A stretch of DNA of 64,000 nt. Origin: Leptogranulimonas caecicola. Lineage in GTDB: Bacteria; Actinomycetota; Coriobacteriia; Coriobacteriales; Atopobiaceae. The first letter of the stretch is position 1. Every line of letters begins with the position of its first letter. This document shows positions 1,653-55,752 of this stretch, piece by piece. The position numbers and the translations under genes were made by a program. The stretch lies in assembly GCF_023168405.1 (NCBI RefSeq), contig NZ_AP025285.1:928001-992000 (forward strand), written 5' to 3'. The notes below the pieces were generated by a model that was not told the DNA's origin, did not search any database, and saw only the letters and a program-made list of their open reading frames with translations.

Positions 1653-3104
1653 ATGAAACTCTTGCGCTGCGATGTCTGTGTAGTGGGATCTGGCATTGCT
1701 GGAATCTCTGCCGCTTTGGCCGCTCGCGAAGCGGGCGCCTGTGTGGTCCTGGTGAGCTTGGGCACGTTGGGATCAGGCGCGAGCTTTTCTGGCACTACCT
1801 GGGGTCTTGGTATGGTGGGCCCCCTTAGCGACAGCACTGAAGATAAAGAGGCTTTTGTTCAGGGCATCCTGGCCCCCGCAGGCGACGTGGCCACTTCAGG
1901 GATGGCAGAGGTGCTCGCAAATAGATTTTATGAGTCTCTGACCACCTTTGAACGTTGGGGTGCAGTATTAGAACCTGCCGAGAAAGGCCAAGAAACCCAC
2001 CGGAGCTATGTGCCGTGCTTTGACACAGAGACGCGTGGATGGTTTGGTTTTCATGCCGGGCCCTCGCATGACCCATTGGTGAATACGGTACTCCGATCAG
2101 GGGTGGAGTGTTTCTCGGCAGCCCAAGCCCTCTCTTTGTTAAAAGACCCAGACACCGGAGCCCTTAGTGGGCTTGTAGCTTCCTGTGAGGGAGAGCTCAT
2201 GGCTGTGGTATGTCCCTGTGTGGTGCTGGCCACAGGAGGCATGGCGGCGCTAAGAAAGCCCACGCTCTCTTCGGGGCAATGCCGAGGCGTGGGAGCTTCT
2301 ATGGCGGCGGACGTAGGAGCTCAGGTGGCTAATCTGGAGTTCGAGCAGCTCATGGTGGGCATCAAGACTTCAGGGACGCCTGCGGTATTCAATGAGAAGC
2401 TCTGGCGTTACACACGGCTGGAGAAAGACGGTAAAGACGTGTTCCGGCTTGCGGGCATTGACGAGCAGGAGGCCAAGGCAGCGCTGGAAGCTCATTCTTG
2501 GCATGGCCCCTATACCTCCCAGCGGCCTTCTCGCAAAGTGGAAGAGGCCATTTGGGCGGTAGGCGGGTCGTGTGACGCGATCATTAAGCGCCCCGAGGGC
2601 GAGCTGCCTTCCTTCATCGCCACATACATGGATTGGCTCCAAGAGGCCCATGGGCTGGGATTTGGCGACAAGCTGCCTGTCGCGGTCTATCACCAAGCTT
2701 CCAATGGCGGCATCGTGATAGATCCGAAGACCTGTCAAACCCAGGTAGAGGGCCTTTATGCCGCAGGAGAGTGCGCTCCCCTCTTCGCCATTGACCGGCT
2801 AGGCGGCATCGCCAGCTCTCAAGCCATGGTATTTGGCCAGTTGGCAGGGATTGAAGGGGCGGCCTACGCCAAGAGACGCCCGTTGGCGCCGGAAGTGCCA
2901 ACGGATCAGTTGCAGTTGGTTTCTTGCCCGGATGAACAGGCAGCCACGCCGAAAGACCTGAAGAGCTTGGATGCCCCCCAATTAAAATGCAAATTTGAGC
3001 AATGGAGAGCCTATCATCAGGCGCACGGAGAAGCGCTTCTTAAGGCATGCATCCAGCGAAGGATCGTTTCTGGCAAGGAGCCGGGACCAATACTGTGTCC
3101 CTGA
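1653..3104 (+). CDS. FAD-dependent oxidoreductase (fumarate reductase/aspartate oxidase-like flavoprotein)
   Basis: A 483-residue flavoprotein. The N-terminal CVVGSGIAGISAALAAREAG is a dinucleotide-binding Rossmann motif, and the C-terminal GLYAAGECAPLFAIDRLGG is the second FAD-contact region typical of the FAD_binding_2 family (fumarate reductase, L-aspartate oxidase, urocanate reductase). There is no signal peptide, Tat motif or haem-binding CxxCH, so a soluble cytoplasmic flavoenzyme is more likely than a secreted flavocytochrome c. The substrate is unknown. L-aspartate oxidase is possible, but no nadA or nadC lies beside it. It lies just downstream of a PucR-type regulator on the same strand. 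It contains two copies of the dispersed 10-mer, one in each orientation (1976-1985 and 2111-2120). Confidence 0.8.
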   Translation: MKLLRCDVCVVGSGIAGISAALAAREAGACVVLVSLGTLGSGASFSGTTWGLGMVGPLSDSTEDKEAFVQGILAPAGDVATSGMAEVLANRFYESLTTFERWGAVLEPAEKGQETHRSYVPCFDTETRGWFGFHAGPSHDPLVNTVLRSGVECFSAAQALSLLKDPDTGALSGLVASCEGELMAVVCPCVVLATGGMAALRKPTLSSGQCRGVGASMAADVGAQVANLEFEQLMVGIKTSGTPAVFNEKLWRYTRLEKDGKDVFRLAGIDEQEAKAALEAHSWHGPYTSQRPSRKVEEAIWAVGGSCDAIIKRPEGELPSFIATYMDWLQEAHGLGFGDKLPVAVYHQASNGGIVIDPKTCQTQVEGLYAAGECAPLFAIDRLGGIASSQAMVFGQLAGIEGAAYAKRRPLAPEVPTDQLQLVSCPDEQAATPKDLKSLDAPQLKCKFEQWRAYHQAHGEALLKACIQRRIVSGKEPGPILCP

Positions 3105-3123
3105 CCGCTAGGCTCTGCGCACA

Positions 3124-4884
3124 TCAGGCTTGACGCACCTGTGCCACCAGCACTTTAATCGGCTCATCGTCTATGGCCGGCCGCAAACGATAACTTTGCA
3201 CCTGGGCTGGCACGATGACGGTCTCCGCATAGTGGATCTCTCTGGGCTCGAAGGCGCCCTGAGGGCTTTCGAGCCACGCGGCGGTCCCTTCTACCAGGTT
3301 AAATACCTGTACTTCGCCTTGAGTGGACAAATCGATGGCGCGAGAGGAGCTATAGCGGCGCGTCTCTATGAACTCCAACTCGTGCAGGCCTGTCTTCTCT
3401 ACCTTGAGGTCTTCGTCGTCGTAAAGCGTCTCAACCTGATTGATCAGATGTCCTTTCACCCAGGAGGCGTCTCTGTCCCACTGGATGTTTCGAGCGCCGT
3501 CTTCTATGTGAATGGGCCGGGGGTTTCCGTCAAGATCGGTGCGGTCCCAGTCCCAGAGCTTGTAGGTGAAGATGTAAGGGGTGGCGCTGACTTCCAGCAC
3601 CATGCAGTCTGCTGAGGAGCAATGGACGGTGCCGGCGGGAATAAGAAAGTGGTCATGTTTGGCTGCGGGCCAGAAGTTGACGTATTTTGCGGCATCAAAA
3701 GAGCCTGTGACCTGTGCTTCCTTGAGATCGCCAATCATTTGATCGCTATCGATGCCCTCTTTTACCCCAAGGTAAACCCCGCCATTTTGTCCTGCATCCA
3801 AAATGTAATAACTCTCATCCTGGGTGTAGGTCATGCCATAATGGTTTATTATATAATCTGTCGTGGGGTGCACTTGCAAGCTGAGGTTCTGGCCGCCCAT
3901 GGTGTCCAGCAAATCGAACCGTATTGGGAATTCTGCGCCAAAACGTGCATAGTTACGTGCGCCCAGCAGCTCTTTTGGATGAGCCAAGACAATATCTTGA
4001 GCCGGCACCTCCACATTGGTGGTGCCATAGCGCAAAAGCACGCTGTTCTCTTCTGGCACTCCGTCAAAACTCCAGGCATAATTTGGCGCCTCAGGGCTTA
4101 GGCCAAAGTGCTCTCGCATCCATTGGCCGCCCCACACCCCCGGGTCAAAATATGGCACCATGCGAAACGGCGAACGCACCGCCTGGGCAAGCCCTGCGCG
4201 ATAGGCATCCCCGCTTATCATGAGCGGTTTTTGCCTATGGGTAAGCGCAAGCAGGTAATCGAGGCTGGGTTGGAGCTGGCGCTTGATTTTGTCAGCCAGC
4301 CGCCATTCAATGAAATAGCCGCGTTTGAATTTGCGCGCGTTGGATTCTTGGGGGTTGTTCCAAAAATGATTAGGCATCCCTTGGCGGTACCTTTGTTGGA
4401 TTTCCCAGCGGGAGATATCTCCATAGACGGTAAGCACCTGCTCTTCAGGAAGCTCTCGGGCACAAGGATCTGCAATCAAAGAAGCCCCAAAACCCCAGAC
4501 AATCACCGGTCTGTGAGCTTTTAGGCAACGGCGGATATCTTCCTGGATGCGAGCCTTTGCGCTTGTATCCATAAGGTCTTGCAGGGTGCCCCTATACATG
4601 ACACCGCGAACGCTGTCGCAGGTGACGTGTGGGGCTAGGATCGCCTGAATAGCCTCTTGATCCAGATAGGCGTCCCTGGCATCTACTACCGTTGCGTCAG
4701 GAAATGCGGGAGCCACCAAATCCAGAGCTTCAGAAGATATCCCTGGGTACATCTCCACCACTATGAGGCGTGCCTGCGTGCGGGAAGACAGCTCCTCCAA
4801 GATCGCCTGCGGAGTCTCCCATAGGGCATGGTCATAGCCATCAACTTTGATAGTGGGTGAAAGATCGTAGCGGTAATCGCTCAT
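3124..4884 (-). CDS. manA: Class I mannose-6-phosphate isomerase with long N-terminal domain
   Basis: At 586 residues it is much longer than single-domain phosphomannose isomerases (roughly 300-400). The C-terminal half is the cupin isomerase: YFDPGVWGGQWM starts the domain, SLQVHP, DESYYI and IPAGTVHCS carry the expected metal-binding His/Glu residues, and TYKLWDWDR follows. It should interconvert mannose-6-phosphate and fructose-6-phosphate. Residues 1 to about 270 form an extra domain (around VIVWGFGASLIADP and LTVYGDISRWEIQQRY) of unknown role with a kinase-like look but no evident Walker A. Start ATG has a strong GGAGGGGCC site. The GntR regulator just upstream on the same strand is the likely controller. 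Confidence 0.85.
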   Translation of the reverse strand: MSDYRYDLSPTIKVDGYDHALWETPQAILEELSSRTQARLIVVEMYPGISSEALDLVAPAFPDATVVDARDAYLDQEAIQAILAPHVTCDSVRGVMYRGTLQDLMDTSAKARIQEDIRRCLKAHRPVIVWGFGASLIADPCARELPEEQVLTVYGDISRWEIQQRYRQGMPNHFWNNPQESNARKFKRGYFIEWRLADKIKRQLQPSLDYLLALTHRQKPLMISGDAYRAGLAQAVRSPFRMVPYFDPGVWGGQWMREHFGLSPEAPNYAWSFDGVPEENSVLLRYGTTNVEVPAQDIVLAHPKELLGARNYARFGAEFPIRFDLLDTMGGQNLSLQVHPTTDYIINHYGMTYTQDESYYILDAGQNGGVYLGVKEGIDSDQMIGDLKEAQVTGSFDAAKYVNFWPAAKHDHFLIPAGTVHCSSADCMVLEVSATPYIFTYKLWDWDRTDLDGNPRPIHIEDGARNIQWDRDASWVKGHLINQVETLYDDEDLKVEKTGLHELEFIETRRYSSSRAIDLSTQGEVQVFNLVEGTAAWLESPQGAFEPREIHYAETVIVPAQVQSYRLRPAIDDEPIKVLVAQVRQA

Positions 4885-5070
4885 AAGGCCCCTCCAACTC
4901 GATGGCTTTTTGGCTCATTGGCACGACAGGGCTTCGGGATGAAATCCGGGAAATCCATCTAGTACATCCTAATGTTATGACAATAAGAACAATAGCATAG
5001 TAGAGGTCTAAAAAGAAGAGCTTGCGATGATGGATAAAAGCATGAAGGGTAAACAGTTCTCCCTTATACG

Positions 5071-5080
5071 TGCCGAGAAA
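5071..5080 (+). repeat. Intergenic copy of dispersed 10-mer TGCCGAGAAA
   Basis: Exact copy in the 205-base gap between gntR and manA, ten bases beyond the gntR stop, so it is not explained by protein coding. See the finding on this motif. Confidence 0.6.
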
Positions 5081-5089
5081 AGCTTCCGC

Positions 5090-7421: not shown

Positions 7422-7479
7422 AAGCCTCTACTCCCCTCTCTCGCACGCTGCCATCCAGAGCTAGTGTACTCCTTAGAGC

Positions 7480-8421: not shown

Positions 8422-8592
8422 AGTAATACCCTTTCTCAAAGGTCCCAAAAGACCTATGGCCTTGGGATCGCTACAGATCTAACAGCCCTGATACGAGGGC
8501 GTCGTTTGGTAAAGACACCTAGATCTATTCCCATAATCATGGCAGCAAGAGGTCGGCAGCGTTACCCCATAAGGGATTCAAAAGTTATCCAG

Positions 8593-9645: not shown

Positions 9646-9770
9646 GGGCACGCCTCCAAATTAATGATGTCAACAGAAATTCTGGCAACCAACAGAAGGA
9701 TACCCTTCCAGAAAGAGTTCTAAGATAGCGTGAATACCGAGAAACACCTCCGACTTAGAAGGGACATGTT

Positions 9771-10475: not shown

Positions 10476-10531
10476 GGTGTTTATTTTAGTATTACATCAC
10501 CCAAGCTCACAGAGTAGGTTTCATATTCAAT

Positions 10532-11510: not shown

Positions 11511-11531
11511 GGGGGCACGGGTTTCTCGGCA
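11511..11531 (-). repeat. Intergenic copy of the extended dispersed repeat
   Basis: The plus strand reads GGGCACGGGTTTCTCGGCA with two more G at the left. It is intergenic, upstream of the gene at 11583, and matches 30258-30278 (inside ecfT) in 20 of 21 positions. Confidence 0.65.
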
Positions 11532-12746: not shown

Positions 12747-14624
12747 ATGAGCACCACGGAGTTTTCCATCATTCTTCCTGCGTTGCCCAATCGCCCTTGG
12801 GCCGCAGCACTCAGCAGCTGTTTAGCCCAAGAGGGCGTTCGTGCCACTGTGACGGTACTGGCCACTTATGACACGGCAGACGGCGCCCCCGCTTTGGATC
12901 CCGCAGAAAGCGCCCTTTTGGAAGGCTTCTCTGTGCCTGATTCCATCGAAGTGCGCTGGGTTTCCGCGCATTCTGCCGAGGATCTGCACTCCTACCTGGC
13001 AGTGTTGCTCTCTACGCCGGCTCAATGGGTGATGCTTTTGCATCCAGACTGTGTGCTGGCTCCCACTGCCTGCGCCCAAGCCCGGGATCTCGCAGTGGCT
13101 CACGAGGCTTCTCTGGTGATCCCTGGAACTCAAGAGATTACCTTGGATACCGCTCAAGGCGAGGCCACCCAAGCGATCTTTGGCAGCCATCTGGCATCCT
13201 TGGATCCCGCCTGTCTTTTGGCAGACCACACCAGCGCCATCCTTGCCTGTGCCGCGATGCTTTCTGCCACCGTCCAGACCCCTGTGCGCCATAGCTTCCT
13301 CTTTAGCCTTTGCTCTTTGGCAAAGCGGGCGCATATCACCCAGATGCCACTGGCAGAAGAGCTTTTCGAAGGCGCCCCCAAGACGCTCTGCGATTGTCAG
13401 GAGGTCTCCGAAAACGCCACCATCGCTTCTCAAGTGGGTCGCATGATCTCCCAAAACCAGCGCTGGGACGAGCTGCGTGCCAGCTACGAGGTGCTCTGCC
13501 AAGAGCTGATCGAGCCCTTTGCCAGAGCCTGCTTCCCTGCAGCTTGTCATGCCGAAGCCTCTAAAATGGTGGCCAAAGAAGGCCCGGTGTCGCTTTTTGA
13601 CACTTTGGCAGAGTGCTGGCCTCTCCCTGAGCTTGTCTCGAGCATTGCCTACTGGGCTACCTCTCATCCTGAGACCATCGCTTCGGTGGTGCTTCGCGCC
13701 GGCTGCCTGGAGGCCCACCTCAGCGCCCTTGATCGCGTGATGGTGGTCACCTGCCCTCAAAGTCCTCTGTCGCTGGACGACAGCAATGAGATCCAGGATG
13801 CCTTGGATCGCTTCGCCATTCAAACCTCGAAGTTTTACACAATGGCTCCCCTTGCTGCCGAGATACCCCTCGATGCTTGCAGCATCACTGCCCTTAAAGC
13901 CACGTCCTCTAGAGCAGCGTCATCGGAGGGCGCCTGTGGCTTCCCTCTGGCTTTGGCCCAGCGCTGGCACCGGACCCTCAGGGAGGAGGCGCCGGATCTG
14001 GTAGTCCTTCCGCTTTGCAACTCCCCCGAGCTCTTCTGGGGCGCCCTCATGGCGCGCCTGGCGCACATTCCGGTGGTGGCCGTTGCTCAGTCTGACACCC
14101 AGGATGGCTCCAAGGCGCTCTGGGCCAAGGCTGCCGCCAGTTTGGCCTCGGTGGTAGCGGTGGATGCCGAGGCTGCAGACCCTTTGGTAGGCTCCAATAC
14201 CACGGATCTCAATGGCTCCCAGTCTGCCAAGGAGCGTTTCTCGGCATCGCTGACCTCGGCGCTATTGGCAGCTCATGGCAAAGCCCCAACCATCATTCGC
14301 GGCGCTTCTGAGCCATTGGCCCTTTGGGCCAGCCGAGTGCTGGATGCCCTAGAAGAGCGGCTCTCCCAGCCTCCCGCGCCTTCCATGCCTTCCGACGCCC
14401 TGTTGCCCCTCTTCGACGCACGGCTTAACAGCGGGCAGCGGTCGTTCTTATCGGCAGAGCAGATGGCAGCTCAGCTCGAGGATCGTGTAGAAATTCTTGA
14501 GGCGCGCTTGGCGTCCTCTCGAAGCGAGGCGGCCATGCTGCGCAGGCGTTTGGCAGAAGCCCAGGGTTTCACGCAAGAACCGCGCACCCCCAATTGCCCC
14601 CTCTCCCCCCGAGACGATTGCTAA
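12747..14624 (+). CDS. Glycosyltransferase-like protein with C-terminal coiled coil
   Basis: 625 residues. The N-terminal ~200 residues resemble a GT2-type fold (FSIILPALPNRPWAAALSSCLAQEG, then WVMLLHPDCVLAP at the usual metal-site position), but the classical VVDDxS segment is replaced by VLATYDTADG, so catalysis is uncertain. The middle has no family I can name. Residues about 570-610 form a heptad-like coiled coil (LEDRVEILEARLASSRSEA). The same overall plan (GT-like domain, long middle, C-terminal coiled coil) recurs in the next gene, suggesting distant paralogues or a partner pair. One copy of the dispersed 10-mer lies at 14237-14246. No membrane segment is evident. Possibly involved in surface polysaccharide or protein glycosylation (inference). 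Confidence 0.6.
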   Translation: MSTTEFSIILPALPNRPWAAALSSCLAQEGVRATVTVLATYDTADGAPALDPAESALLEGFSVPDSIEVRWVSAHSAEDLHSYLAVLLSTPAQWVMLLHPDCVLAPTACAQARDLAVAHEASLVIPGTQEITLDTAQGEATQAIFGSHLASLDPACLLADHTSAILACAAMLSATVQTPVRHSFLFSLCSLAKRAHITQMPLAEELFEGAPKTLCDCQEVSENATIASQVGRMISQNQRWDELRASYEVLCQELIEPFARACFPAACHAEASKMVAKEGPVSLFDTLAECWPLPELVSSIAYWATSHPETIASVVLRAGCLEAHLSALDRVMVVTCPQSPLSLDDSNEIQDALDRFAIQTSKFYTMAPLAAEIPLDACSITALKATSSRAASSEGACGFPLALAQRWHRTLREEAPDLVVLPLCNSPELFWGALMARLAHIPVVAVAQSDTQDGSKALWAKAAASLASVVAVDAEAADPLVGSNTTDLNGSQSAKERFSASLTSALLAAHGKAPTIIRGASEPLALWASRVLDALEERLSQPPAPSMPSDALLPLFDARLNSGQRSFLSAEQMAAQLEDRVEILEARLASSRSEAAMLRRRLAEAQGFTQEPRTPNCPLSPRDDC

Positions 14625-17451: not shown

Positions 17452-17459
17452 GGCAGTCT

Positions 17460-22068: not shown

Positions 22069-23449
22069 GGCTCTCCCCAATCTTTTCAAGCTCTGCCTTG
22101 GCAGGCCACAGGGCAGAATAGTTGGTAAGCACATACAGAGGACGGTCTTTGGGAAGGGATGTTATGTGATCCAAGGCATCCTTGACGCTTGCGCAGAGCG
22201 GCGCGTCCATGCCGGCATACTTCATACGTACCTGCAGGTCGTTGGAGCGATGTCCACCCACTGCCAGTGTGAGGTCGTCTTCCTGGGAGAGGCGCTCGAA
22301 GTCCACATCCCAGATCCAAGAGATATCTTTGCCGTCGTTGTAGTCGTCGTTCACCACAAAGAAGGCGGCTTTGGGCCGATCGTCGGCAAGCATGAGGGAG
22401 ATGTTCTGGTTAAAGCCAGTAGGGTTTTTGGCTAAGTTGAGCACCACTTCTCTACCGTCCACATCAAAGCGCTGCAAGCGCCCGTTCTCCGGATGGTAGT
22501 GATCCAGGGTGTCTTGGAACTGTTCTGGGGTCACCCCGGCCAGCGTGGCCCCAATGAAGGCGGCCAGCAGGTTGTAGACCATGTAGACGCCGCCAAAGGA
22601 CGCCTTAAGGTGCACAGGCCACTGGGGTGTTTCAAGCGGAGAGGCTGCGGGTTTCTCGGCAGCAGGGGTGCGCGGACCTGTCACGTCAAAGGAGACTCCT
22701 GTGCGCTCCACCTTGACGTGGGTGGCACGCCAGTCGAGCTCAGGGCGAGCGAAGTCTCCATTGGGGCATGCAAAGTTTCCCAGCTGGGCGTAGTGGCGGA
22801 AGACATAGTCGAGCTCTGCTCCGCAGACTTGGCAAAAGCGAGCCTCGGGCACACGGTCGGGGGGAAGGCCCAGAGCCTCGTCGATGCCAAAGGAGATGAC
22901 GGGATTGCCTTGGGTAAGACGCAGCGCCACGCCCATGGAAAGCGGGTCGTCGCCACAGACTACCAGCGTGGTCGCGGGAGAGGCGTCCAGCGCGTGGGCA
23001 ATGGTGTCTTGCACGCGGTCTATCTCGCCTGCGCGGTCCAGCTGGTCGCGAAAGAGATTGAGCAAGATGAGATAGCGGGGTTTTAGGGCCGGCAAGATCT
23101 TGATGGTGGAGAGCTCGTCTGCCTCGATGACAGCCCAATTGGCCGAGAGCTTGGTCATGAGGGCTGCGGTGACGCCTGGTGCCATGTTGGCTCCAGCGCG
23201 GTTGCACATCACTGTCTGACCAGAGGCTTCTATGGCCGAGGCGAGCACGTTATTGGTAGTGGTTTTGCCGTTGGTGCCGCAGACCACGATGGAGCCCTCT
23301 ACATGAGAAGCCAGCTCGCTCAAGAGCGCAGGATCGATGGCCAAGGCGATGCGGCCTGGCAGCTGAGAGGCGTTTCGGTGAAGCACTGAGACAAGGCCCC
23401 AGCGCGTCAGTTTTCCAGCGCCTAAGGCAAAGGAAGCGCGCAATGTCAT
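22058..23449 (-). CDS. murT: Lipid II isoglutaminyl synthase, Mur ligase-like subunit
   Basis: 463 residues from the ATG at 23449, one base after the asp23 stop; GAGG precedes it. ATP site VVCGTNGKTTTNN; central Mur-ligase domain; C-terminal DUF1727-type region (NPTGFNQNISLM). The inserted zinc-ribbon region has CQVCG and ACPNGDF, so only three of the four cysteines usual in MurT are visible. Just after it is PAAEKPAASPLETP, encoded by a copy of the dispersed repeat (22652-22661). The protein uses ammonia from GatD to amidate lipid II at the cytoplasmic membrane face. Confidence 0.93.
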   Translation of the reverse strand: MTLRASFALGAGKLTRWGLVSVLHRNASQLPGRIALAIDPALLSELASHVEGSIVVCGTNGKTTTNNVLASAIEASGQTVMCNRAGANMAPGVTAALMTKLSANWAVIEADELSTIKILPALKPRYLILLNLFRDQLDRAGEIDRVQDTIAHALDASPATTLVVCGDDPLSMGVALRLTQGNPVISFGIDEALGLPPDRVPEARFCQVCGAELDYVFRHYAQLGNFACPNGDFARPELDWRATHVKVERTGVSFDVTGPRTPAAEKPAASPLETPQWPVHLKASFGGVYMVYNLLAAFIGATLAGVTPEQFQDTLDHYHPENGRLQRFDVDGREVVLNLAKNPTGFNQNISLMLADDRPKAAFFVVNDDYNDGKDISWIWDVDFERLSQEDDLTLAVGGHRSNDLQVRMKYAGMDAPLCASVKDALDHITSLPKDRPLYVLTNYSALWPAKAELEKIGESHER

Positions 23450-23962: not shown

Positions 23963-24382
23963 TTAGCGGTAATCGTTAGAAGGGGCAAGTAGATGCTTGA
24001 CGGCATTGATGATGCGCGGGTCGCCGTCCAGCCATTGACCAAAGGCTACCCCGGCAGTGGCCATAAGCGCTACAAAAAGCGCCTGGAAGAAACCGACCCA
24101 AAAGATAAGCAGAGCCACCACCACTCCAAGCACGCCAAAGATCACCGCATTGGAATGGCCGGGCGCCAATCCCTCTACCCAACTGGCAGCAGTGGATCGC
24201 GTTTTGGCGGCCAGTATGCGTGCATGGGCTCCTTGCGCCTTGAAGTTTGTGACTGCGTCGGCAGGCTGGGAGCCTTTTTCCTGCCGAGAAGCTCCTGCCT
24301 CAGTAGTTGAGGCTTTTTGAGTGGACTCGCCATCGGCAGACTCCACATCGACTTCGACGGTTACAGGAGGCTTTTTGGCCAT
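23963..24382 (-). CDS. DUF2273 small membrane protein
   Basis: 139 residues from the ATG at 24382 (GGAGG upstream; one base after the amaP stop). The first ~75 residues are polar (MAKKPPVTVEVDVESADGES). The C-terminal part has two adjacent membrane segments (AVIFGVLGVVVALLIFWVGF and the FVALMATAGVAFGQWLDGD region), the DUF2273 signature commonly found between amaP and asp23 genes. Likely part of the same membrane-anchored stress complex. Confidence 0.82.
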   Translation of the reverse strand: MAKKPPVTVEVDVESADGESTQKASTTEAGASRQEKGSQPADAVTNFKAQGAHARILAAKTRSTAASWVEGLAPGHSNAVIFGVLGVVVALLIFWVGFFQALFVALMATAGVAFGQWLDGDPRIINAVKHLLAPSNDYR

Positions 24383-24383: not shown

Positions 24384-25169
24384 CTAGTGCACCTCCTTAG
24401 ATATAGCCTGAGGATGCACGATGGTAACCTCAGAAGAGCTGCTGGTAGAAGCTTCGGATTCTGGAGAGACTGCTTCTTCTGGTGACAAGCCTGTAGAGCT
24501 TTGAGCATCCTTCGAGGCTTCGATTCCGTAAGGTACGGGTTTCTCGGCAACTTGGCCGGTATCATGACGCAGGGCACGATCGGCCTTGTGGGCGGCGGTG
24601 GGCTTGAAGCTGCCATTCTTTTGAGGGGACACGGCGTTGCCGGGAGTGATGTCGGCAGTTTGGCGAGGCTCCAAAAAGCGCAGAGTCAACGATCCCAAAC
24701 GGTCGCCAATGAGAATGGTGAGTCCCCGGCGCAATGATTCTTGGAGGGCCTGAGCTTCGGCCTGGACATCGAGAGAGTGGTAGGGCTGGATCCAAAGGGC
24801 TACATCCACCTGATCGCGATGGCGAGTATCTACCACCACCTTGGTAACCAGGCATAGGCCGTCAGCCTCGGCCAGATAGGTGGCTTGGGACGCCACCGCA
24901 GAGCGCGCGATGGAAACGCGGTCGCCATCTTCATTGATGACTTCGATGTCTTTGGGTTTTTTGGCGCGCACCCCAGCCACAAAGAGACAGATGAATCCCA
25001 CGAGCCCTATGACGATGAAGGCTTCTGTGAGGAAGACGAACCAGTCAAGGGCGAACAAGGCAGAGATCTGGGCTGTCCAAGGGCCGAGCCACCAGACAAG
25101 GCCAAGACCAACCACTAGCAAGCCTAGCAGCGAAAAGACTATGAGGCAGAAGCGCTTGAACCCATTCAT
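24384..25169 (-). CDS. amaP: Alkaline shock response membrane anchor protein AmaP
   Basis: 261 residues from the ATG at 25169, which has GAAGGG nine bases upstream; earlier in-frame ATGs (25178, 25193) are placed too close to that site or lack one. Two N-terminal membrane segments (RFCLIVFSLLGLLVVGLGL, FLTEAFIVIGLVGFICLFV) and a cytoplasmic domain (SIARSAVASQATYLAEADG) match AmaP. The C-terminal ~85 residues are low-complexity, Ser/Glu-rich, and include VAEKPVPYGIE encoded by a copy of the dispersed repeat. First gene of the operon. Confidence 0.85.
   Translation of the reverse strand: MNGFKRFCLIVFSLLGLLVVGLGLVWWLGPWTAQISALFALDWFVFLTEAFIVIGLVGFICLFVAGVRAKKPKDIEVINEDGDRVSIARSAVASQATYLAEADGLCLVTKVVVDTRHRDQVDVALWIQPYHSLDVQAEAQALQESLRRGLTILIGDRLGSLTLRFLEPRQTADITPGNAVSPQKNGSFKPTAAHKADRALRHDTGQVAEKPVPYGIEASKDAQSSTGLSPEEAVSPESEASTSSSSEVTIVHPQAISKEVH
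24530..24550 (-). repeat. Copy of extended dispersed repeat inside amaP
   Basis: Plus strand GGTACGGGTTTCTCGGCAA. It is read in the gene as AEKPVP within the unconserved C-terminal tail. Confidence 0.6.
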
Positions 25170-28460: not shown

Positions 28461-29873
28461 CTACCCCAAAAGCGAGTCCTGGAAATATGCGCCTGTCTCT
28501 TGCGTAGTGCAAATGCCTCCATCAAACATGAGAGAGGTAGCATGGCTGGCTACCCGCGCGAAGTCCAAGTCATGGGTGGCATAAAGGATAGCGCTCCCCT
28601 CCTGCGCCGCCTCGCACAAAAGATTTGCCACCAGGGATTTGAGCGAGCTGTCCAGCCCTTTGACCGGTTCATCCAACAAAAGAAGCAAGGGCTTAAGTAA
28701 GAGCAGCTTGCCTAGAGCGAGCAGTTGAAGCTGGCCTCCAGAAAGCGAAGGGGGGTCTTGTTCCCATGCCTTTAAAAGCCCAAGCCTTTTAGCCATGGCG
28801 CGCGCATCATGCTCTCTATAACCTACAGAGGTCGCCCACTCCATCAGCTCTTCTCCCACAGTCTCTGAGATCAAAAGCTCCATAGGATCCTGCGGCAGGT
28901 AGGCAACGCTTTGTGCTACCTGGTTGTGAAGAGTGCCCCGACTGGCTCTGGTGATGCCCGCCAGTGTTTTTAGCAGGCTGGATTTGCCAGACCCATTGCC
29001 TCCCACCAATGCGCGCATCTCTTTGGCGGACAAGGTGAGGTCGCACTGCCTTAACACCCAGGGGTCGCGCTTGGTGTAGCGCATCCAAAGATCATGAGCC
29101 TCCACCACCGTTACTCCCAGCTGAGGCAACGGCGTTTCTCGGCAAAGAGGAGCGGGAGAGGCCAAGGAAGATAGCTCTTGAGCCTCCAGGCGCCCGTGAG
29201 AGAGACGCACAGCCATGGACGCATAAGGGGCGATGGCAGAAGCTCGGTGAGAAGCCACCACTATCGTGATGCCTAGCTGCTGGTTAAGCCGGTATAAACT
29301 GCCGAGAAAAGACCCCTCAGCCACAGGGTCTAGTTGCGAGGTGGGCTCGTCAAGCAGGAGCACCGATGGCCTGAGGGCGCAGACTGCGGCGAGGGCTACC
29401 AGTTGGCGTTGGCCACCGGATAATTCTGCACAGGGGCGATGCAACCAGGGGTCGAGACCCAAAAAGGCGCAGGTCTCAGCGATAGAGCGCTTCATTGCAT
29501 CCTGGGGCACATCGAGGTTTTCAAGGCCAAACGCGAGTTCGCCAATGACGGTGTCGGCCACGATTTGAGCCGAAGGATCCTGGTCCACAAATCCTAGCGA
29601 TCTGGCTGATACCTCTTTTGAGAGCCGGGATACCGGAGTGCCTTGGAAGGACACCGTTCCCCTGAGATTGCCTTTGGGTGCCAACTGGGGTTTTGCTAAG
29701 CGCAAGAGAGTGGATTTGCCCGAGCCTGTAGCCCCAGTGAGAAGGCAGAAGGCTCCTTGAGGCACTTGGAGTCTCACGTCATGAAGAACATCGATGACAG
29801 GAGAGGCTGCATCCAGGGCTGGATAGCTAAAGCTCACCGAATCCCAGGATAGAATTATGGGACTGAGGCTCAT
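28461..29873 (-). CDS. ECF transporter ATPase, two fused nucleotide-binding domains
   Basis: 470 residues from the ATG at 29873 (GGAGG five bases upstream; it overlaps the ecfT stop as ATGA). Two complete ATPase halves: Walker A GATGSGKST with LSGGQRQLVALA and VLLLDEPTSQLD, then GGNGSGKSS with LSGGQLQLLALG and LLLLDEPVKGLD. This replaces the usual separate EcfA1/EcfA2. It powers vitamin uptake with EcfT and an S component. Three dispersed-motif copies or near copies fall in or near this gene (29135, 29300). Confidence 0.9.
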   Translation of the reverse strand: MSLSPIILSWDSVSFSYPALDAASPVIDVLHDVRLQVPQGAFCLLTGATGSGKSTLLRLAKPQLAPKGNLRGTVSFQGTPVSRLSKEVSARSLGFVDQDPSAQIVADTVIGELAFGLENLDVPQDAMKRSIAETCAFLGLDPWLHRPCAELSGGQRQLVALAAVCALRPSVLLLDEPTSQLDPVAEGSFLGSLYRLNQQLGITIVVASHRASAIAPYASMAVRLSHGRLEAQELSSLASPAPLCRETPLPQLGVTVVEAHDLWMRYTKRDPWVLRQCDLTLSAKEMRALVGGNGSGKSSLLKTLAGITRASRGTLHNQVAQSVAYLPQDPMELLISETVGEELMEWATSVGYREHDARAMAKRLGLLKAWEQDPPSLSGGQLQLLALGKLLLLKPLLLLLDEPVKGLDSSLKSLVANLLCEAAQEGSAILYATHDLDFARVASHATSLMFDGGICTTQETGAYFQDSLLG

Positions 29874-36727: not shown

Positions 36728-38287
36728 TTAATTATGGCAACCATTAAGGGAGTAGAGCCGAGCCAACAGGGCGCTTTTCTCGGCAGGCAAAAAACCCGAC
36801 TGCACCTCCTTAAGAAGCCGTTGCAAAAGCAAGCCCACCGAAGGCCCTGGAGTCAGCGCCAGCTCGCGGATGATGTCATTTCCAGAGATAGGCAAATCAG
36901 AAATACGATAGGGCGCACCTGCAGCAAGGAGCGTTGCAGCCAGTGACTCAAGCTCATCAACTTCGATAGCATAAGATCTATAAGCAGGAGCTTTTGCCAT
37001 GGCGTCGGCGCGTTTGATGATCATCAACTCATGAACAAGCCACGGAGCCTGTCCTGGGGCATAGTGATCCAAATCTGAAAGGATCGAGAGCACCGAAGCC
37101 CTCTGCGGCTTTACAGGCCTATCATGCAGGCGGATAAGCGCCAGTGCAGGGATCGTCACGTCTTTGGGAATGGCCAATCGGCGCAGCACCGTTTGTGCAA
37201 TATCGCGGCCATGGGCGGGATGGCCATAGAAATGCGCTTGGCCACGGGTATCAAAGGTAAGACATTCTGGCTTGGCGATGTCGTGCAAAAGCGATGCCCA
37301 TCCCAAGCGCTCGCTTAGGATGCCGCCGCAAAACACAGAGGTGAAATCGCAGACACGCGCCACATGGTCGAGCACGTCATAAGAGTGGTAAGGCGTCTGC
37401 TGAGGAAATCCAGCCATGGGTCCGAGCTCGGGGATTGCCGAGAAAAGCGCGTCTTTCTGCTCCCGAAGTGCCCAGCCAGCCCTGCCAGAGGCAACAATGC
37501 CGCGCATCTCTTGTCCTACGCGCTCGCGGCTCACCAGGTAGAGCCGTTGGGCTCCTCGATTCACCGCCGCCTGGGTAGCAGGATCGATGGCAAACCCATA
37601 GCGAGCAGCAAACCGTACGGCTCGAAGGACTCGCAACGCATCTTCTTCCATGCGCTTTTGAGGATTTCCCACGGCACGAATTCGCCGCAGCGCGAGGTCG
37701 TCGAGGCCCCCAAAGAGATCCAGCAAGCCGCGATTGGGATGGTAGGCCATGGCATTGATGGTGAAATCCCGTCTCGCGAGATCCTGCTCGATAGATGAGA
37801 CATAGGATACTTGGGAGGGGTGGCGGCCATCTAGATAGGCCCCCTCCCTTCGATAGGTAGTCACCTCGACTGGCATGCCGTCTACCAGGACAGTAATGGT
37901 GCCATGAGCCGATCCTGTGGGAATTACAACGAGGCCGCGATCCCGCAAGAGGGATGCCGCCTCTTGCCAAGGGGCTGAGCTTGCCACATCCACATCATGA
38001 CCAGGCCTGCCCAAAAGCCCGTCTCGCACCCATCCGCCAACGATCCATGCGCTGTAACCTGCTTCTTCCAGCGCCTGGATTACCTTGAGCCCTGCGACAG
38101 GCTGAGGCAGCGCTGCGAGCGTGCGCTCAGCTTCCTGATAGGCCTGTAGGACCTGCGGCAAATATTTATGATGGAGGGTAAAGAGATGGGCGGGTTTCTC
38201 GGCAGCGTTATCACCAGCGGCCCCTTGAGCCACAAGCTCCAGATGAGCCGGCGGCTCGACAAGGCTAAGAGGAGGACCTGGGACCAT
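36728..38287 (-). CDS. cca: CCA tRNA nucleotidyltransferase with HD domain
   Basis: 519 residues. Nucleotidyltransferase head WIVGGWVRDGLLGRPGHDVDVAS with the two catalytic Asp; RRDFTINAMAYHP; the tRNA-binding RMEEDALRVLRAVRFAARYGF; and an HD phosphohydrolase-like domain (ASLLHDIAKPE, GHPAHGRDIA). It completes or repairs tRNA 3' ends, though poly(A) polymerase activity cannot be excluded from sequence. The ~65-residue leader before the head is unusual, and includes AAEKPAHLF encoded by a dispersed-motif copy; two more copies lie at 36776 and 37436. GGAAGGGA precedes the ATG. Confidence 0.9.
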   Translation of the reverse strand: MVPGPPLSLVEPPAHLELVAQGAAGDNAAEKPAHLFTLHHKYLPQVLQAYQEAERTLAALPQPVAGLKVIQALEEAGYSAWIVGGWVRDGLLGRPGHDVDVASSAPWQEAASLLRDRGLVVIPTGSAHGTITVLVDGMPVEVTTYRREGAYLDGRHPSQVSYVSSIEQDLARRDFTINAMAYHPNRGLLDLFGGLDDLALRRIRAVGNPQKRMEEDALRVLRAVRFAARYGFAIDPATQAAVNRGAQRLYLVSRERVGQEMRGIVASGRAGWALREQKDALFSAIPELGPMAGFPQQTPYHSYDVLDHVARVCDFTSVFCGGILSERLGWASLLHDIAKPECLTFDTRGQAHFYGHPAHGRDIAQTVLRRLAIPKDVTIPALALIRLHDRPVKPQRASVLSILSDLDHYAPGQAPWLVHELMIIKRADAMAKAPAYRSYAIEVDELESLAATLLAAGAPYRISDLPISGNDIIRELALTPGPSVGLLLQRLLKEVQSGFLPAEKSALLARLYSLNGCHN

Positions 38288-41755: not shown

Positions 41756-43138
41756 ATGGATACCCTGTCTAAACTCTCAATACTGGCAGATGCCGCCAAG
41801 TATGATGCAGCCTGCACATCTTCAGGTGCGGATAGGGCCCCTCGAAAAGGCATGCTAGGCATGGCGAGCAGCAGCGGATGTTGCCACAGTTTCACCCCTG
41901 ATGGTCGCTGCATTACACTGCTAAAAGTCCTCATGTCTAATGCATGCACCTATGACTGCGCCTATTGCGTCAATAGGCGTAGTGCAGGAGGTCTGCGAGC
42001 CACTTTCGAGCCAAAAGAATTAGCGGCGCTCACCATAGATTTTTACAAACGCAACTATATAGAGGGTCTTTTTTTAAGCTCAGGAGTGCTTGGCGAGCCA
42101 AATGCCACCTGTGAGCGCATGATAGAAACGCTCCGTCTACTAAGAGAAGATTACCGATTTAACGGATACATACACGCAAAGGCAATCCCCGGGGTGGCTC
42201 CGGAGCTCATTGACCGCTTGGGAAGATTGGCAGACAGGATCTCTGTCAACATCGAGCTTCCCAGCTCCGCCTCTCTTCATACGCTCTGCCCTCAAAAGCA
42301 GGGGGCGGATATCCTCAAACCCATGCGCCAGATCCATGACACTCTTCAGCAAGAAAAACTATTGGGCGCGGGAGGGAAAGGCAACAGCGGTGCAGGATCT
42401 TACCTGTCTACCGTAAAGCCTCCTCTTCCAGCCGAGAACAGCCACCATCAGCTCCCTGAAAGAACTGGGCAAAGACCGCAGTTGTTTAGAAGTACGAGTG
42501 CTTCGTCTGCCTTTGCTCCCGCAGGGCAGGCGACGCAATTAATCGTGGGGGCCTCTCCGGAAGACGACAATCACATATTGAAGCTCTCAAGCTCCCTCTA
42601 TAAAACATACGGGTTGAAAAGAGTGTTTTTCTCGGCCTATATGCCGGTAATCGAGGATTCGCGCCTCCCCCATCCAGAAACTCCGGTTCCCCTTCGTAGA
42701 GAGCACCGGCTATACCAAGCAGATTGGCTCATGCGTTTTTATGGCTTTGATGCTGACGAGCTGGTGAGCCCAGAAGCACCTTTTTTGGATTTGGAAGTCG
42801 ATCCAAAGTTGGCTTGGGCACTGACCCACATGGAGCAGTTCCCCATAGAGGTGAATACTGCCTCAAAAGGCGACCTTCTGAGAGTTCCGGGCATAGGGCC
42901 TGTCGGCGTTAGGAAGATATTGCGCGCTCGTAAAAGCCATCAGCTTACCTTTGATGATTTGAAAAGGCTCAAACTCACCATGCGCAGGGCGTGCCATTTT
43001 CTCACCTGTGGCGGGCAACGCGATCCACAAAGCCCTGCTCATCCAGAACAAATAAGAGAGTTGGTGATTCAAGATGCCGCTGCCTCTTCCTATAACCGCA
43101 CTCAACGAAACCTCCAAGGCCAGCTCTCGCTCTTCTGA
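41756..43138 (+). CDS. Putative DNA modification/repair radical SAM protein (TIGR03916 type)
   Basis: 460 residues. The radical SAM cluster is C64-x3-C68-x2-C71 (CTYDCAYC). KGMLGMASSSGCCHSFTPDGRC, LFLSSGV and VFFSAYMPV match the family named for linkage to uracil-DNA-glycosylase-like proteins. The C-terminus has a helix-hairpin-helix (LLRVPGIGPVGVRKILRAR) that should bind DNA. Residues about 205-245 (GAGGKGNSGAG to SSAFAPAG) form a Ser/Gly/Pro-rich insertion that I do not expect in the family. The partner gene overlaps its 3' end by 65 bases. Two LexA-type boxes sit in the promoter, suggesting damage induction. Confidence 0.85.
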   Translation: MDTLSKLSILADAAKYDAACTSSGADRAPRKGMLGMASSSGCCHSFTPDGRCITLLKVLMSNACTYDCAYCVNRRSAGGLRATFEPKELAALTIDFYKRNYIEGLFLSSGVLGEPNATCERMIETLRLLREDYRFNGYIHAKAIPGVAPELIDRLGRLADRISVNIELPSSASLHTLCPQKQGADILKPMRQIHDTLQQEKLLGAGGKGNSGAGSYLSTVKPPLPAENSHHQLPERTGQRPQLFRSTSASSAFAPAGQATQLIVGASPEDDNHILKLSSSLYKTYGLKRVFFSAYMPVIEDSRLPHPETPVPLRREHRLYQADWLMRFYGFDADELVSPEAPFLDLEVDPKLAWALTHMEQFPIEVNTASKGDLLRVPGIGPVGVRKILRARKSHQLTFDDLKRLKLTMRRACHFLTCGGQRDPQSPAHPEQIRELVIQDAAASSYNRTQRNLQGQLSLF

Positions 43139-46751: not shown

Positions 46752-46762
46752 GCCATTGATTG

Positions 46763-47686: not shown

Positions 47687-47741
47687 ATAACGAGCTCCCT
47701 TCATGTCTGGCGCGCCACTTATGGGCGCAAATGCGAATAAC

Positions 47742-47773
47742 AAGGCCTGGAGCCTGGTGAGGCCCCAGGCCTT
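47742..47773 (-). terminator. Stem-loop between dppF and nanA-like gene
   Basis: Perfect 9-bp inverted repeat AAGGCCTGG / CCAGGCCTT; minus strand followed by TTGTTATT. Likely attenuates read-through from the transporter genes. Confidence 0.6.
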
Positions 47774-47799
47774 AGGAAACCGAGATCTTAGCCTAACTC

Positions 47800-48654: not shown

Positions 48655-48657
48655 GGG

Positions 48658-50694: not shown

Positions 50695-50695
50695 G

Positions 50696-51646: not shown

Positions 51647-51703
51647 GCTGTTCTCTCCTTTCTGTTAATTCGGTAATTGATGGATACTATCGACAAGGAA
51701 GGA

Positions 51704-51738
51704 GCGCGGGGAGGCATGGAAGAGACGCCTCCCCGCGC
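51704..51738 (-). terminator. Strong stem-loop between dppA and dppB
   Basis: Perfect 12-bp GC-rich inverted repeat GCGCGGGGAGGC / GCCTCCCCGCGC with an 11-base loop and only a weak T/C run after it on the minus strand. Such elements between a binding-protein gene and its permeases commonly raise binding-protein mRNA over the rest by partial termination or 3'-end protection. Confidence 0.75.
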
Positions 51739-51804
51739 CCACGGGGTCACGCTTCTTTCCACGGCCAGCTTCAAAAGCGGCAAGCTGGGTTCACGGGAAA
51801 AGAG

Positions 51805-53409: not shown

Positions 53410-54046
53410 TGCATTCTCCTGTCTGCCCGTTGCGAGGTTCTCCTCGCGCTTACAACTGCGTTTAATCCTAAGGGTTAACTGAAAGATCCACTTCGCAGCT
53501 GATATGATTCTCCGCAAACGACAGCGAGTTGTACACCAGCTCTAGGAGATGCTCGACAGACGGAAAAAGGTATATCTATAGGGGCTAAATAGGCATCTTA
53601 CCTGTGGATTTAGACATGTTTAGTTTTGATAAAGGGGGCATCAAAATATTCTTCATATCCGATGCAAGTGGGCTTTGTAACTATTCCGTGAACGGTTGTC
53701 TAATCCCAATCCTTACATTGGTGCATTTTAGGGATTTTTAGACACTATTCCGTAAGTTCTACTGTATCGAAGTATCTCTATGCGTAACTAGTTTTATGGA
53801 TATCATAATATTATCTTATTCCTATAACATTGCGTAGATATTAGGCAACCCTGATTTCATTTCATTTCGCTGAATGGTAGCTGTAGTGCACCAGCGGTGC
53901 CCGTTATTCCGCCAACGGCAGCTTGACCCCTTCTTAGTGTACAAGTAAAAGTAGCCTCAAAAGATTATTTGCCACCGAGCATTGCTAAACTCTCATTGAG
54001 CGTTCGTAGTTCAAAGGCAGTGTGCAAGCTTTTAAAAGGATTCACT
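53410..54046. other. 637-base AT-rich intergenic region between dppA and the histidinol-phosphatase gene
   Basis: The longest gap in the window and clearly AT-richer than its surroundings. It must hold divergent promoters for the dppA-nan cluster (minus) and the PHP gene (plus). It contains three TATTCCG repeats (53682, 53746, 53905). An in-frame upstream start at 53969 for the plus-strand gene lacks a ribosome site. No RNA gene or riboswitch was recognised. Confidence 0.55.
53682..53911 (+). promoter_or_regulatory. Three TATTCCG repeats, candidate regulator sites upstream of the dppA-nan cluster
   Basis: TATTCCGTGAACGG at 53682, TATTCCGTAAGTTC at 53746 and TATTCCGCCAACGG at 53905. The first contains CCGT-GA-ACGG, and the third lies in CCGTT-N8-AACGG, both inverted repeats, as expected of dimeric repressor sites. 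The regulator is not encoded in the window. Confidence 0.45.
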
Positions 54047-54844
54047 ATGTTGGTAGACACCCATTCGCACACCTACTTTTCCGATGGCGCCGATAGCCCC
54101 CAAGCCATGGTGGAAGTCGCTGAACAAGCGGGCCTCGATCTTCTATGCATCACCGATCACCTTACTCTGCCTGTGTGGCTAGATCCTCGGGCTGAGTGCT
54201 CCGTTGCCGAGAAAGACCTCCCCCTCTGGCGGCAGGAAATTACGGAGGCTGCTGCCCGTGTTTCTATTCCTGTGCTCTGGGGTGCCGAATGCGATTGGTA
54301 CGAAGGCTGCGAACCGCTTATAGAGCGTTGGAGCCAGGAGGTGCAGATACGCTTAGGCTCGGTTCACTGGGTGGATGGTCGCCCCATAGATGATCCTGAG
54401 GACCTCTCGTTTTGGGAAGATGAGGGCCCCGACACTGTGTGGCAGCGCTACGTAGAAGCTTGGTGTGCCGCTTGCGAAAGCACTGCTGATTTTGACACCA
54501 TGGCGCACCCAGACTTGCCTGCCCGCTTCTGGCATGAAGGTTATGCACCTTCCATAGACTTGGAGCCCCTTTATAAGACTATGGCCGAATGCGCCCATGA
54601 CACTCATCGCCGCGTCGAGGTTTCCACAGCGCTCTTGCGTAAAGGTGGGAAACGCCTTTATCCAGACACTCCCCTGCTCAAGCATTTCTCTGATGCCCAA
54701 GTGCCCGTCACGTTTGGCAGCGATGCCCATAGAGCACGAGACGTGGGCGCCGATCTCACCGAGGCACACAGGGTTGCCTGGGATCTAGGCTATCGATTCC
54801 AAGAAGTGCCTTCCACAGAAGGCTGGCGCTCTGTAGCTCTGTAG
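54047..54844 (+). CDS. hisK: Histidinol-phosphatase, PHP family
   Basis: 265 residues from the ATG at 54047 (AAAGGA upstream). MLVDTHSHTYFSDGADS with HxH metal ligands, DLLCITDHL, WGAECDW, DTMAHPDLP and TFGSDAHRARDVG are the PHP metal-binding blocks, in the arrangement of HisK/HisJ enzymes. It hydrolyses histidinol phosphate to histidinol. The his operon that ends convergently 60 bases away lacks any other phosphatase, which supports this assignment. Confidence 0.85.
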   Translation: MLVDTHSHTYFSDGADSPQAMVEVAEQAGLDLLCITDHLTLPVWLDPRAECSVAEKDLPLWRQEITEAAARVSIPVLWGAECDWYEGCEPLIERWSQEVQIRLGSVHWVDGRPIDDPEDLSFWEDEGPDTVWQRYVEAWCAACESTADFDTMAHPDLPARFWHEGYAPSIDLEPLYKTMAECAHDTHRRVEVSTALLRKGGKRLYPDTPLLKHFSDAQVPVTFGSDAHRARDVGADLTEAHRVAWDLGYRFQEVPSTEGWRSVAL

Positions 54845-54865
54845 CTCTGTAGCTCTGTAGCTCTG
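54834..54865 (+). repeat. Four tandem copies of TAGCTCTG at the hisK stop
   Basis: Exact 8-bp unit repeated four times. The hisK stop codon (54842-54844) is the first three bases of the second unit. A partial further unit lies just before. Confidence 0.95.
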
Positions 54866-54904
54866 CAGGGCTCACGACTGAAACGGGTAACCCGGAGGTT
54901 CCGG

Positions 54905-55222
54905 TTAGCCCATACGGGCGTTTAGCTCTCCTGCAAGCTCGTCCAAATTCACGCCCTCTGCCTCGAGCACCACCATCAAGTGATAAATGAGATCGGCTGC
55001 CTCATAGCGCACATGGTCATGGTCGTGATCCTTGGCTGCCATGACTACCTCGACAGCCTCTTCTGCTACCTTTTTGAGCCGCTTGTCTTCAGGACTTGTA
55101 AGCAGCAGCGCAGTGTAGCTCTCATGTGGGTCATGGTCCCATCGACCGTGGATAGTGGCTGCGAGCGATTCCAGCGTCGCGCCCAAATCGCCAGCTTCCA
55201 CATGCAATGTGCGCTCTCCCAT
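54905..55222 (-). CDS. hisE: Phosphoribosyl-ATP pyrophosphohydrolase
   Basis: 105 residues from the ATG at 55222, with GGAGGAG upstream. LTSPEDKRLKKVAEEAVEVVMAAKD and RYEAADLIYHLMVVLE are the MazG-like helices with metal-binding acidic residues. Hydrolyses phosphoribosyl-ATP to phosphoribosyl-AMP, step two of histidine synthesis. Separate from hisI here, unlike the fused hisIE of many bacteria. Last gene of the his operon. Confidence 0.92.
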   Translation of the reverse strand: MGERTLHVEAGDLGATLESLAATIHGRWDHDPHESYTALLLTSPEDKRLKKVAEEAVEVVMAAKDHDHDHVRYEAADLIYHLMVVLEAEGVNLDELAGELNARMG

Positions 55223-55299
55223 GGAGCTCCTCCAAACACTTCGATGTCCTCTTGCCATATGCGATGCTGCGCTGCTTCTGCTGCCGAGAAGGCCATGCC

Positions 55300-55713
55300 T
55301 CAGGGCCTCTGGACGTCTCCTTGCTGTGGGGCCTCTTCTGCAGCTATAGCGGCATCGGGAGCCAGCTCCCTGAAGAAACAAGATCGATGCCCAGTGTGGC
55401 ATGCGGGACCCGGAGAATCCACTTCCACCAGCAAGGTGTCGTTGTCGCAATCTATGAGCAAAGATCTTACGGTTTGAATGTTTCCGCTGGTGGCGCCCTT
55501 GTTCCAAAGCTCATGGCGCGACCTGGACCAAAACCAGGTTGTGCCCGTCTCTAAGGTGAGCTTCAGCGACTCCTCACTCATCCAAGCCACCATAAGCACT
55601 TCATGGGTATCCGATTGCTGCACTACTGCAGGTATGAGTCCATGCTCATCCAGTTTGAGCGTGACGGCCTCAAGAGGTGTGGGTTCACAGGTTTCGCCTG
55701 CATAACTAGTCAC
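55300..55713 (-). CDS. hisI: Phosphoribosyl-AMP cyclohydrolase
   Basis: 137 residues from a GTG at 55713 with AAGGAG eight bases upstream; upstream in-frame codons overlap hisF and are not conserved. [36 protein letters not shown] and [16 protein letters not shown] carry the zinc- and Mg-binding residues. Opens the purine ring of phosphoribosyl-AMP. The C-terminus has a ~15-residue Ala/Gln-rich extra tail. Confidence 0.92.
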
Positions 55714-55730
55714 AGGAAGACTCCTTGCGG

Positions 55731-55752
55731 TGGGGGTGTAGGTTTCTCGGCA
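55731..55752 (-). repeat. Copy of the dispersed motif between hisF and hisI
   Basis: Plus strand GGGGGTGTAGGTTTCTCGGCA (core 55743-55752), located in the 43-base gap between the hisF stop and the hisI start, so noncoding. Confidence 0.6.

Follow-up and report, generated by a model that had tools for sequence, protein, structure and literature searches.

A candidate DNA uptake sequence with a CGAGAA core and putative genus-level dialects in Leptogranulimonas caecicola and other Atopobiaceae

In a window of 64,000 bases from Leptogranulimonas caecicola (the whole stretch of DNA analysed, bases 928001-992000 of the single contig of 2,001,235 bases of the source genome, G000), the 10-mer TGCCGAGAAA is strongly over-represented, and the excess extends over the entire chromosome. 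We consider it probable that this word belongs to a DNA uptake sequence, a self-tag that would be read by a surface receptor of the competence machinery and enriched by biased recombination. This interpretation is the best supported because the motif has no strand polarity, is enriched between genes, forms inverted pairs, exceeds the numbers obtained by synonymous shuffling and has dialects in related genera, and because ComEA, ComEC and Tad genes were found. Of the three candidates offered by the first-pass annotation of the window, a binding site for a chromosome-organising protein stays as a rival to the uptake sequence, and a small mobile repeat was ruled out.

All 14 exact copies of TGCCGAGAAA listed by the first-pass annotation were confirmed at their positions, and the word was as rare by chance as had been claimed, with a mean of 0.14 copies and a maximum of 2 in 100 dinucleotide shuffles of the window. 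The window also contained 27 one-mismatch copies. Of the 11 places previously given for such copies, nine were accurate to within 2 bases, while the copy placed at 9738 was at 9735 and nothing matched within 2 bases of 42430; a one-mismatch copy at 42628 had not been listed. The count over the complete genome, which had been proposed as a check, yielded 158 forward and 174 reverse copies (332 in total), versus 1 forward and 3 reverse copies (4 in total) of the reversed word that served as a control.

The anatomy and placement of the motif were analysed in a sample of G000 consisting of 800 kb in evenly spaced 20 kb stretches plus the window (864 kb), with gene positions taken from our own gene calls (80% coding). 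Each of the 14 commonest 10-mers listed for this sample was a piece or variant of the motif. The full motif is non-palindromic and about 13 bp long, approximately (C/T)TGCCGAGAA(A/G)CCC, and is followed by a pyrimidine-rich 3' flank. Counting the start of TGCCGAGAAA as 0, C was found at +12 in 95-97% of copies, at +10 in about 70% and at +11 in 55-60%; pyrimidines prevailed within +10 to +20, including all of +14 to +20, and a weak GG was seen at +27/28, so that the C-rich 3' flank reported for the window was upheld. A 10-bp helical period was sought in this flank, where the pyrimidine profile gave hints too weak to claim one. Beyond the roughly 13 bases and the weak compositional bias of the flank, the sequences around different copies were unrelated. 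The form ending in G (TGCCGAGAAG) was nearly as common as the main form (142 and 151 copies), and the two together, TGCCGAGAAR (the R form), amounted to 293 copies in 864 kb, i.e. 339 per Mb or about 680 per genome by extrapolation. Tolerated one-base variants of TGCCGAGAAA (first base A or G, second base A, seventh base T, last base T) had 15-24 copies each, and every other one-base change had 0-9.

The motif occurs both between and inside genes, as had been stated for the window, where 5 of the 14 exact copies were intergenic and 9 genic. In the sample, 77 intergenic copies of TGCCGAGAAA corresponded to 45.5 per 100 kb and 74 copies within genes to 10.7 per 100 kb, an approximately 4-fold higher density between genes. 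Its occurrence in at least four reading frames was not seen among the exact copies in the window (six in the Ala-Glu-Lys (AEK) frame on the gene strand and three antisense in a single phase), but the sample bore it out, with coding copies in all six phases. In 200 synonymous-codon shuffles, a mean of 5.0 coding copies (sd 2.2, maximum 11) was obtained versus 75 observed, a 15-fold excess; the density count gave 74, and the extra copy presumably lies in an overlap of two genes. For TGCCGAGAAG, the AAG form, the same number of shuffles gave 10.2 (maximum 24) versus 102 observed coding copies. More coding copies were in the AEK frame (37 of 75) than in any other phase, and the tripeptide contributes to the motif without explaining it, because every phase exceeded its shuffle mean. 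The first-pass annotation had argued that a favoured tripeptide could not be the whole cause, and the shuffles together with the intergenic density agree with this. On no point did the genome behave as usage of the codons GCC GAG AAA alone would predict, since there was an excess in intergenic DNA and in the other frames, and the flank was conserved.

Copies close to each other were mostly inverted. Pairs of TGCCGAGAAA less than 300 bp apart comprised 15 inverted and 2 direct pairs, compared with 5.4 and 5.2 (maxima 14 and 13) when the copies were placed at random 300 times, and for the R form there were 32 inverted and 11 direct pairs, compared with 17.0 (maximum 27) and 16.8. Among 61 copies between tandem genes, 41 were located at most 100 bp past the upstream stop codon and 20 at most 100 bp before the next start codon, where 27.5% would be expected in either case.

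We then counted TGCCGAGAAA in 140 Atopobiaceae genomes, whose genera are labelled g1, g2 and so on, G000 and G028 being g1. G028, the only genome of the same genus among the 140, had 333 copies versus 6 of the control. Elsewhere the word was high in some genera only: 122 copies in G029 (g16, 1.0 Mb), 68 in G010 (g8, 0.6 Mb), 38, 64 and 69 in g2, 18-51 in g15, 49 in G060 (g29) and 21-30 in g34, while three of the 31 g33 genomes had 95, 128 and 154 and the others 5-27. With one base altered, this distribution was inverted. TGGCGAGAAA was found 2 (G000) and 4 times in g1, 183 (G023) and 246 (G027) times in g15 and 15-59 times in g33, its controls having 0-3 copies per strand in the genomes of these three genera and up to 10 elsewhere in the family. 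TTCCGAGAAA had 6 (G000) and 8 copies in g1, 114 in G029 and 79 in G010, and no more than 21 elsewhere in the family. These altered forms in sister genera are, as judged from word counts, dialects around a common CGAGAA core.

Since GAG AAG is a common Glu-Lys codon pair, counts of GGCGAGAAG-like words over whole GC-rich genomes partly reflect codon usage, and intergenic counts are the cleaner evidence of dialects, although small. We sampled 25 relatives, taking 80 kb from each except G108 (60 kb); this gave 5-28 kb of intergenic sequence per sample. A CGAGAA-based word topped the list of over-represented words in nine of them (G003, G023, G026, G028, where it was TGCCGAGAAA itself, G029, G044, G055, G056 and G108). 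The intergenic ratio of GGCGAGAA to GCCGAGAA was 8:1 in G023, 8:1 in G026, 10:0 in G055, 18:3 in G056, 8:1 in G090 and 8:3 in G111, and was reversed in G000 (6:135) and G116 (3:7); both words were rare in most of the others. Intergenic enrichment of CGAGAA was weak or absent, with a rank below 190 among all hexamers, in G018, G020, G035, G039, G040, G044, G051 and G122, and it was low-ranked in several more of the 25, many showing no convincing excess; absence from such small samples is weak evidence, as G028 with its 333 copies genome-wide ranked only 66th in the intergenic test. In an alignment of G000 with G028 (aligned columns totalling 52.5 kb, with an overall identity of 91.5%, paralogous pieces included), 10 of 13 aligned G000 sites were intact in G028, three differed by one base, and two further sites were found in G028 only. 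In this small sample, the sites were a little more conserved than expected by chance from flanks that were 81-97% identical.

In a class-wide count of 396 genomes, Atopobiaceae included, most genomes outside the family had fewer than 20 copies of TGCCGAGAAA. The main departure was G316 (family f5, 3.3 Mb), with 287 copies versus 12 controls, followed by G194 (59 versus 2), G198 (42 versus 6) and G359 (40 versus 5). With the longer TGCCGAGAARNCC, G316 had 290 copies versus 1 control and G194 had 29 versus 0, compared with 288 in G000 and 297 in G028 (3 controls each), and the two sampled members of the family of G316 had 1 and 2. The tag may be an old one that was often lost or changed, or it may have arisen again or moved. 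Because a genome of another family carries the full motif in such numbers, the CGAGAA-core tag may be ancient in the class.

The competence genes proposed as a check (comEA, comEC and pilins) are present in G000 insofar as gene content can tell. The genes of ComEA, a helix-hairpin-helix protein, and of ComEC are located together a short way outside the window (about 912-915 kb). ComEA passes the NCBIfam cut-off of TIGR00426 and falls under that of TIGR01259, ComEC passes that of TIGR00361, and ComEC is present in 137 of the 140 family genomes. A Tad/Flp pilus locus in stretch L033 encodes RcpC/CpaB, T2SSE (TadA), two T2SSF (TadB and TadC) and two TadE proteins over Pfam cut-offs; among NCBIfam models, its TadZ-like matches were weak and its TadG-like gene had none.

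A GspF/PilC/ComGB-like gene with an adjoining small pilin-like open reading frame, the latter identified by eye, was observed at L150:1426-2511 and 2601-2924 (G000 C1, about 369.7-371.5 kb). This gene is separate from the Tad locus, and a second T2SSF system was likewise found in G028, G002 and G003. A type IV pilus involving this extra gene is not favoured as the reader of the motif, the motif-rich G023, G027 and G029 being without it.

In the motif-bearing genomes G023, G026, G027, G029, G055 and G056, T2SSF was found only as one adjacent Tad-type pair, and G316 likewise has ComEC and only a Tad-type pair. Because those carriers within the family have no other T2SSF, the filament for any uptake would likely be Tad/Flp, as in Micrococcus luteus, an actinobacterium in which tad genes are described as required for transformation (PMC4322843).

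A DNA uptake sequence would account for these observations as follows. A DNA receptor on the cell surface, part of the competence machinery, would prefer a word of about 13 bp, and the cell would consequently take up DNA of its own lineage. Biased replacement or recombination would then enrich the word wherever protein selection allows, most freely between genes, whereas paired copies at gene ends could double as terminators and a shift in receptor specificity would start a new dialect. L. caecicola would in that case be naturally transformable with an uptake preference for the motif, and the receptor would sit in the Tad/Flp pilus, as a Flp/TadE-type pilin, or be ComEA. On balance we also lean towards a broader proposal, namely that sequence-specific uptake had a third, CGAGAA-core origin in the Gram-positive Coriobacteriia, with a Tad/Flp pilus (not type IVa) or ComEA as the reader, genus dialects and a mate-recognition barrier among host-associated Actinobacteria. 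If true, this would be a third, unrelated case, in Actinomycetota, beyond two Gram-negative families, implying that the trait evolves repeatedly. How such sequences originate and split into dialects could then be tested in another lineage; the case would also lead towards a novel type of pilus or ComEA protein that reads sequence, and it would hint at a way of providing commensal Atopobiaceae with DNA in the laboratory.

Several observations weigh against an uptake sequence. The copy number (332 exact, about 680 for the R form) is under the range usual for uptake signals, although that range is not a strict definition: classical signals are described as having generally at least 1,000 copies per genome (PMC1852404). 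The competence of Atopobiaceae is deduced from genes, and the receptors, Flp/TadE-type pilins in L033 and ComEA in L019, are candidates. The best NCBIfam model for TadA is the TadA family (E 1.6e-86) with a score below the cut-off (290.6 versus 373.15), and the gene taken as that of the Flp pilin was recognised by eye (…GQGTTEYA…) and has no Pfam match. In many genomes ComEC and a Tad-type pair occur without a clear motif, e.g. in G018 and G051 within the family, and G357, of the same family as G316, has ComEC and only the Tad-type pair, yet lacks the motif. The weakest coding phase of TGCCGAGAAA, antisense phase 0, had 6 copies versus a shuffle mean of 1.4, and the shuffle maximum of 6 equalled it. 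Finally, as regards the depletion in recently acquired DNA that would be expected of an uptake sequence, the only prophage stretch seen was L028 (G000 C1:1400001-1420000), which encodes a terminase, a major head protein, a head protease and an integrase according to PHROGs. Its 20 kb had no TGCCGAGAAA and a single TGCCGAGAAR, against a mean of 6.85 per stretch, but this stretch was singled out once the counts were known, and the core stretch L030 also had 1.

Among the alternatives, the one that survives best is a site bound by a protein of nucleoid organisation, replication or repair (a loader of SMC, a nucleoid-associated protein (NAP) or similar) whose specificity has drifted between genera, and we regard it as unlikely. 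The motif is spread over the genome near-uniformly and without polarity, the distribution across 20 kb stretches being close to Poisson (variance/mean 1.18 for TGCCGAGAAA and 1.11 for TGCCGAGAAR), and lineage-specific forms could arise by co-evolution of any DNA-binding protein. On the other hand, inverted pairs, placement past stop codons and a genic excess beyond codon usage fit uptake sequences and not especially NAP sites, and a non-palindromic 13-mer is unusual for proteins of this kind. The trend from origin to terminus over the 40 evenly spaced stretches was not significant (Spearman -0.17, p 0.28; R form -0.21, p 0.19), with 80 copies of TGCCGAGAAA in the 21 stretches nearer the origin and 57 in the 19 farther ones, where the start of the contig was assumed to be the origin and the terminus was placed near 960 kb on the basis of the switch in gene strand, neither being located directly.

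A Chi-type recombination hotspot for an AddAB-like nuclease of G000 is very unlikely. Such a hotspot would also be a short, non-palindromic and over-represented word, and AddA-like (UvrD helicase and PD-(D/E)XK nuclease) and AddB-like (PD-(D/E)XK) genes are adjacent in L011. Chi words are polar, however, and with the window left out and the same assumed origin and terminus, the leading and lagging strands had 66 and 71 copies of TGCCGAGAAA and 138 and 136 of TGCCGAGAAR, in line with the balance of orientations that the first-pass annotation had held against Chi and FtsK-orienting polar sequences (KOPS). Neither the inverted pairs nor the strong intergenic excess would be expected of Chi, and the motif, with about 13 informative bases, is longer.

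It is highly improbable that the motif is primarily a transcription terminator or RNA element. Copies do cluster past stop codons, stems of at least 6 were found just 3' of 18 of 117 intergenic copies versus 5.2 expected (upstream there was hardly any excess, 7 versus 4.5), and some inverted pairs form hairpins, e.g. at L016:7168. Coding copies had no excess of such stems (8 of 175 versus 8.5), both orientations occur inside genes, and most copies are not closely paired. Use as a terminator seems to be a secondary role, in keeping with what has been described in Neisseria and Pasteurellaceae: inverted pairs in terminators are reported as frequent for the neisserial DNA uptake sequence (DUS; PMC3630211), and likewise for the uptake signal sequence (USS; PMC1852404).

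The two remaining alternatives are refuted: a small mobile repeat (of the repetitive extragenic palindromic or miniature inverted-repeat transposable element type), which the hundreds of copies might suggest, by the unrelated flanks and also by the occurrence in all codon phases, and a by-product of AEK codon or peptide usage, despite its being the commonest frame, by the synonymous shuffles and the intergenic density.

Table. Exact copies of TGCCGAGAAA and intergenic copies of TGCCGAGAAG in the window
Position	Strand	Word	Context	Further features
1976..1985	+	exact copy	genic, AEK frame	inverted pair with 2111
2111..2120	-	exact copy	antisense in predicted gene	3' flank CACTCC; inverted pair with 1976
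5071..5080	+	exact copy	intergenic	
11522..11531	-	exact copy	intergenic	3' flank CCCG
14237..14246	-	exact copy	antisense in predicted gene	
22652..22661	-	exact copy	genic, AEK frame	3' flank CCCG
24282..24291	+	TGCCGAGAAG (second main form in the sampled genome)	intergenic	
24540..24549	-	exact copy	genic, AEK frame	3' flank CCCG
29135..29144	-	exact copy	intergenic	inverted pair with 29300
29300..29309	+	exact copy	intergenic	inverted pair with 29135
36776..36785	-	exact copy	genic, AEK frame	
37436..37445	+	exact copy	antisense in predicted gene	
38195..38204	-	exact copy	genic, AEK frame	3' flank CCCG
54205..54214	+	exact copy	genic, AEK frame	
55282..55291	+	TGCCGAGAAG	intergenic	
55743..55752	-	exact copy	intergenic	

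Other repeated words were also observed. Within the window, CCTGGTA(C/T)TA was found 11 times between 31660 and 34222, all on the minus strand and in two clusters with a spacing of 57-129 bases within a cluster and alternating C and T forms; this looks like a repetitive coding region. Four overlapping CAGAGCTACAGAG words form a short array, repeated in tandem every 8 bases, at 54829-54865, where the predicted gene 53969-54844 ends. Over-represented words unrelated to the motif were found in the relatives G040 (CACTGCCACTC), G090 (ACAAAGGTGAC), G111 (TCAAAAGGGGA), G122 (GGAAAGGAAAA) and G006 (GGGGAGTACCC), in stretches L084-L087, L115-L118, L108-L111, L127-L130 and L139-L142; several of these words were also high in intergenic sequence, and they are possibly mobile repeats.

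Sequence-specific uptake is placed in the Neisseriaceae and Pasteurellaceae, both Gram-negative (PMC5031613, PMC3630211, PMC12616744), and ComP and DUS have been described in Neisseria (PMC6370729). Among the matches listed in a search of the open-licence PMC literature, there was no report of uptake sequences for Coriobacteriia, Actinobacteria, Gram-positives or Atopobium/Olsenella/Atopobiaceae, nor any among the matches listed for the 10-mer itself, which is weak evidence of absence. The DUS of Neisseriaceae (ATGCCGTCTGAA and its dialects, with the minor pilin ComP) resembles the present motif in several ways. Both are short, non-palindromic, found on either strand and in intergenic as well as coding DNA, and both form inverted pairs where genes end; in both cases related genera have dialects, competence genes are present and some family members have no obvious word (PMC3630211). 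The DUS differs in its invariant CTG core, as opposed to CGAGAA here (GCCGTCTGAA has 0 copies in the window), in its thousands of copies and in its type IVa pilus, the present host being a Gram-positive member of Actinomycetota with, judging by genes alone, a Tad/Flp pilus.

Chi sites, recognised by RecBCD or AddAB, are similar in being short over-represented words, with AddAB-like genes present here, and dissimilar in the leading-strand polarity that our motif lacks. The USS of Pasteurellaceae (AAGTGCGGT with 3' tracts) shares with the motif a short core whose degenerate flank on the 3' side spans one to two helical turns, variants by genus and terminator pairs (PMC1852404). Its core, AAGTGCGGT or ACAAGCGGT, is unrelated (AAGTGCGGT has 0 copies in the window), its copies are more numerous, and its hosts belong to another phylum with another pilus type. 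The flank of the USS is A/T-rich, whereas that of the present motif is C-rich. For M. luteus, with its Tad/Flp-dependent transformation, the term 'uptake sequence' is absent from the main text of PMC4322843, and two tad loci are described there, compared with the one Tad-type T2SSF pair found in G000; the likeness lies in the combination of actinobacterial ComEA and ComEC with tad genes, common to both (PMC4322843).

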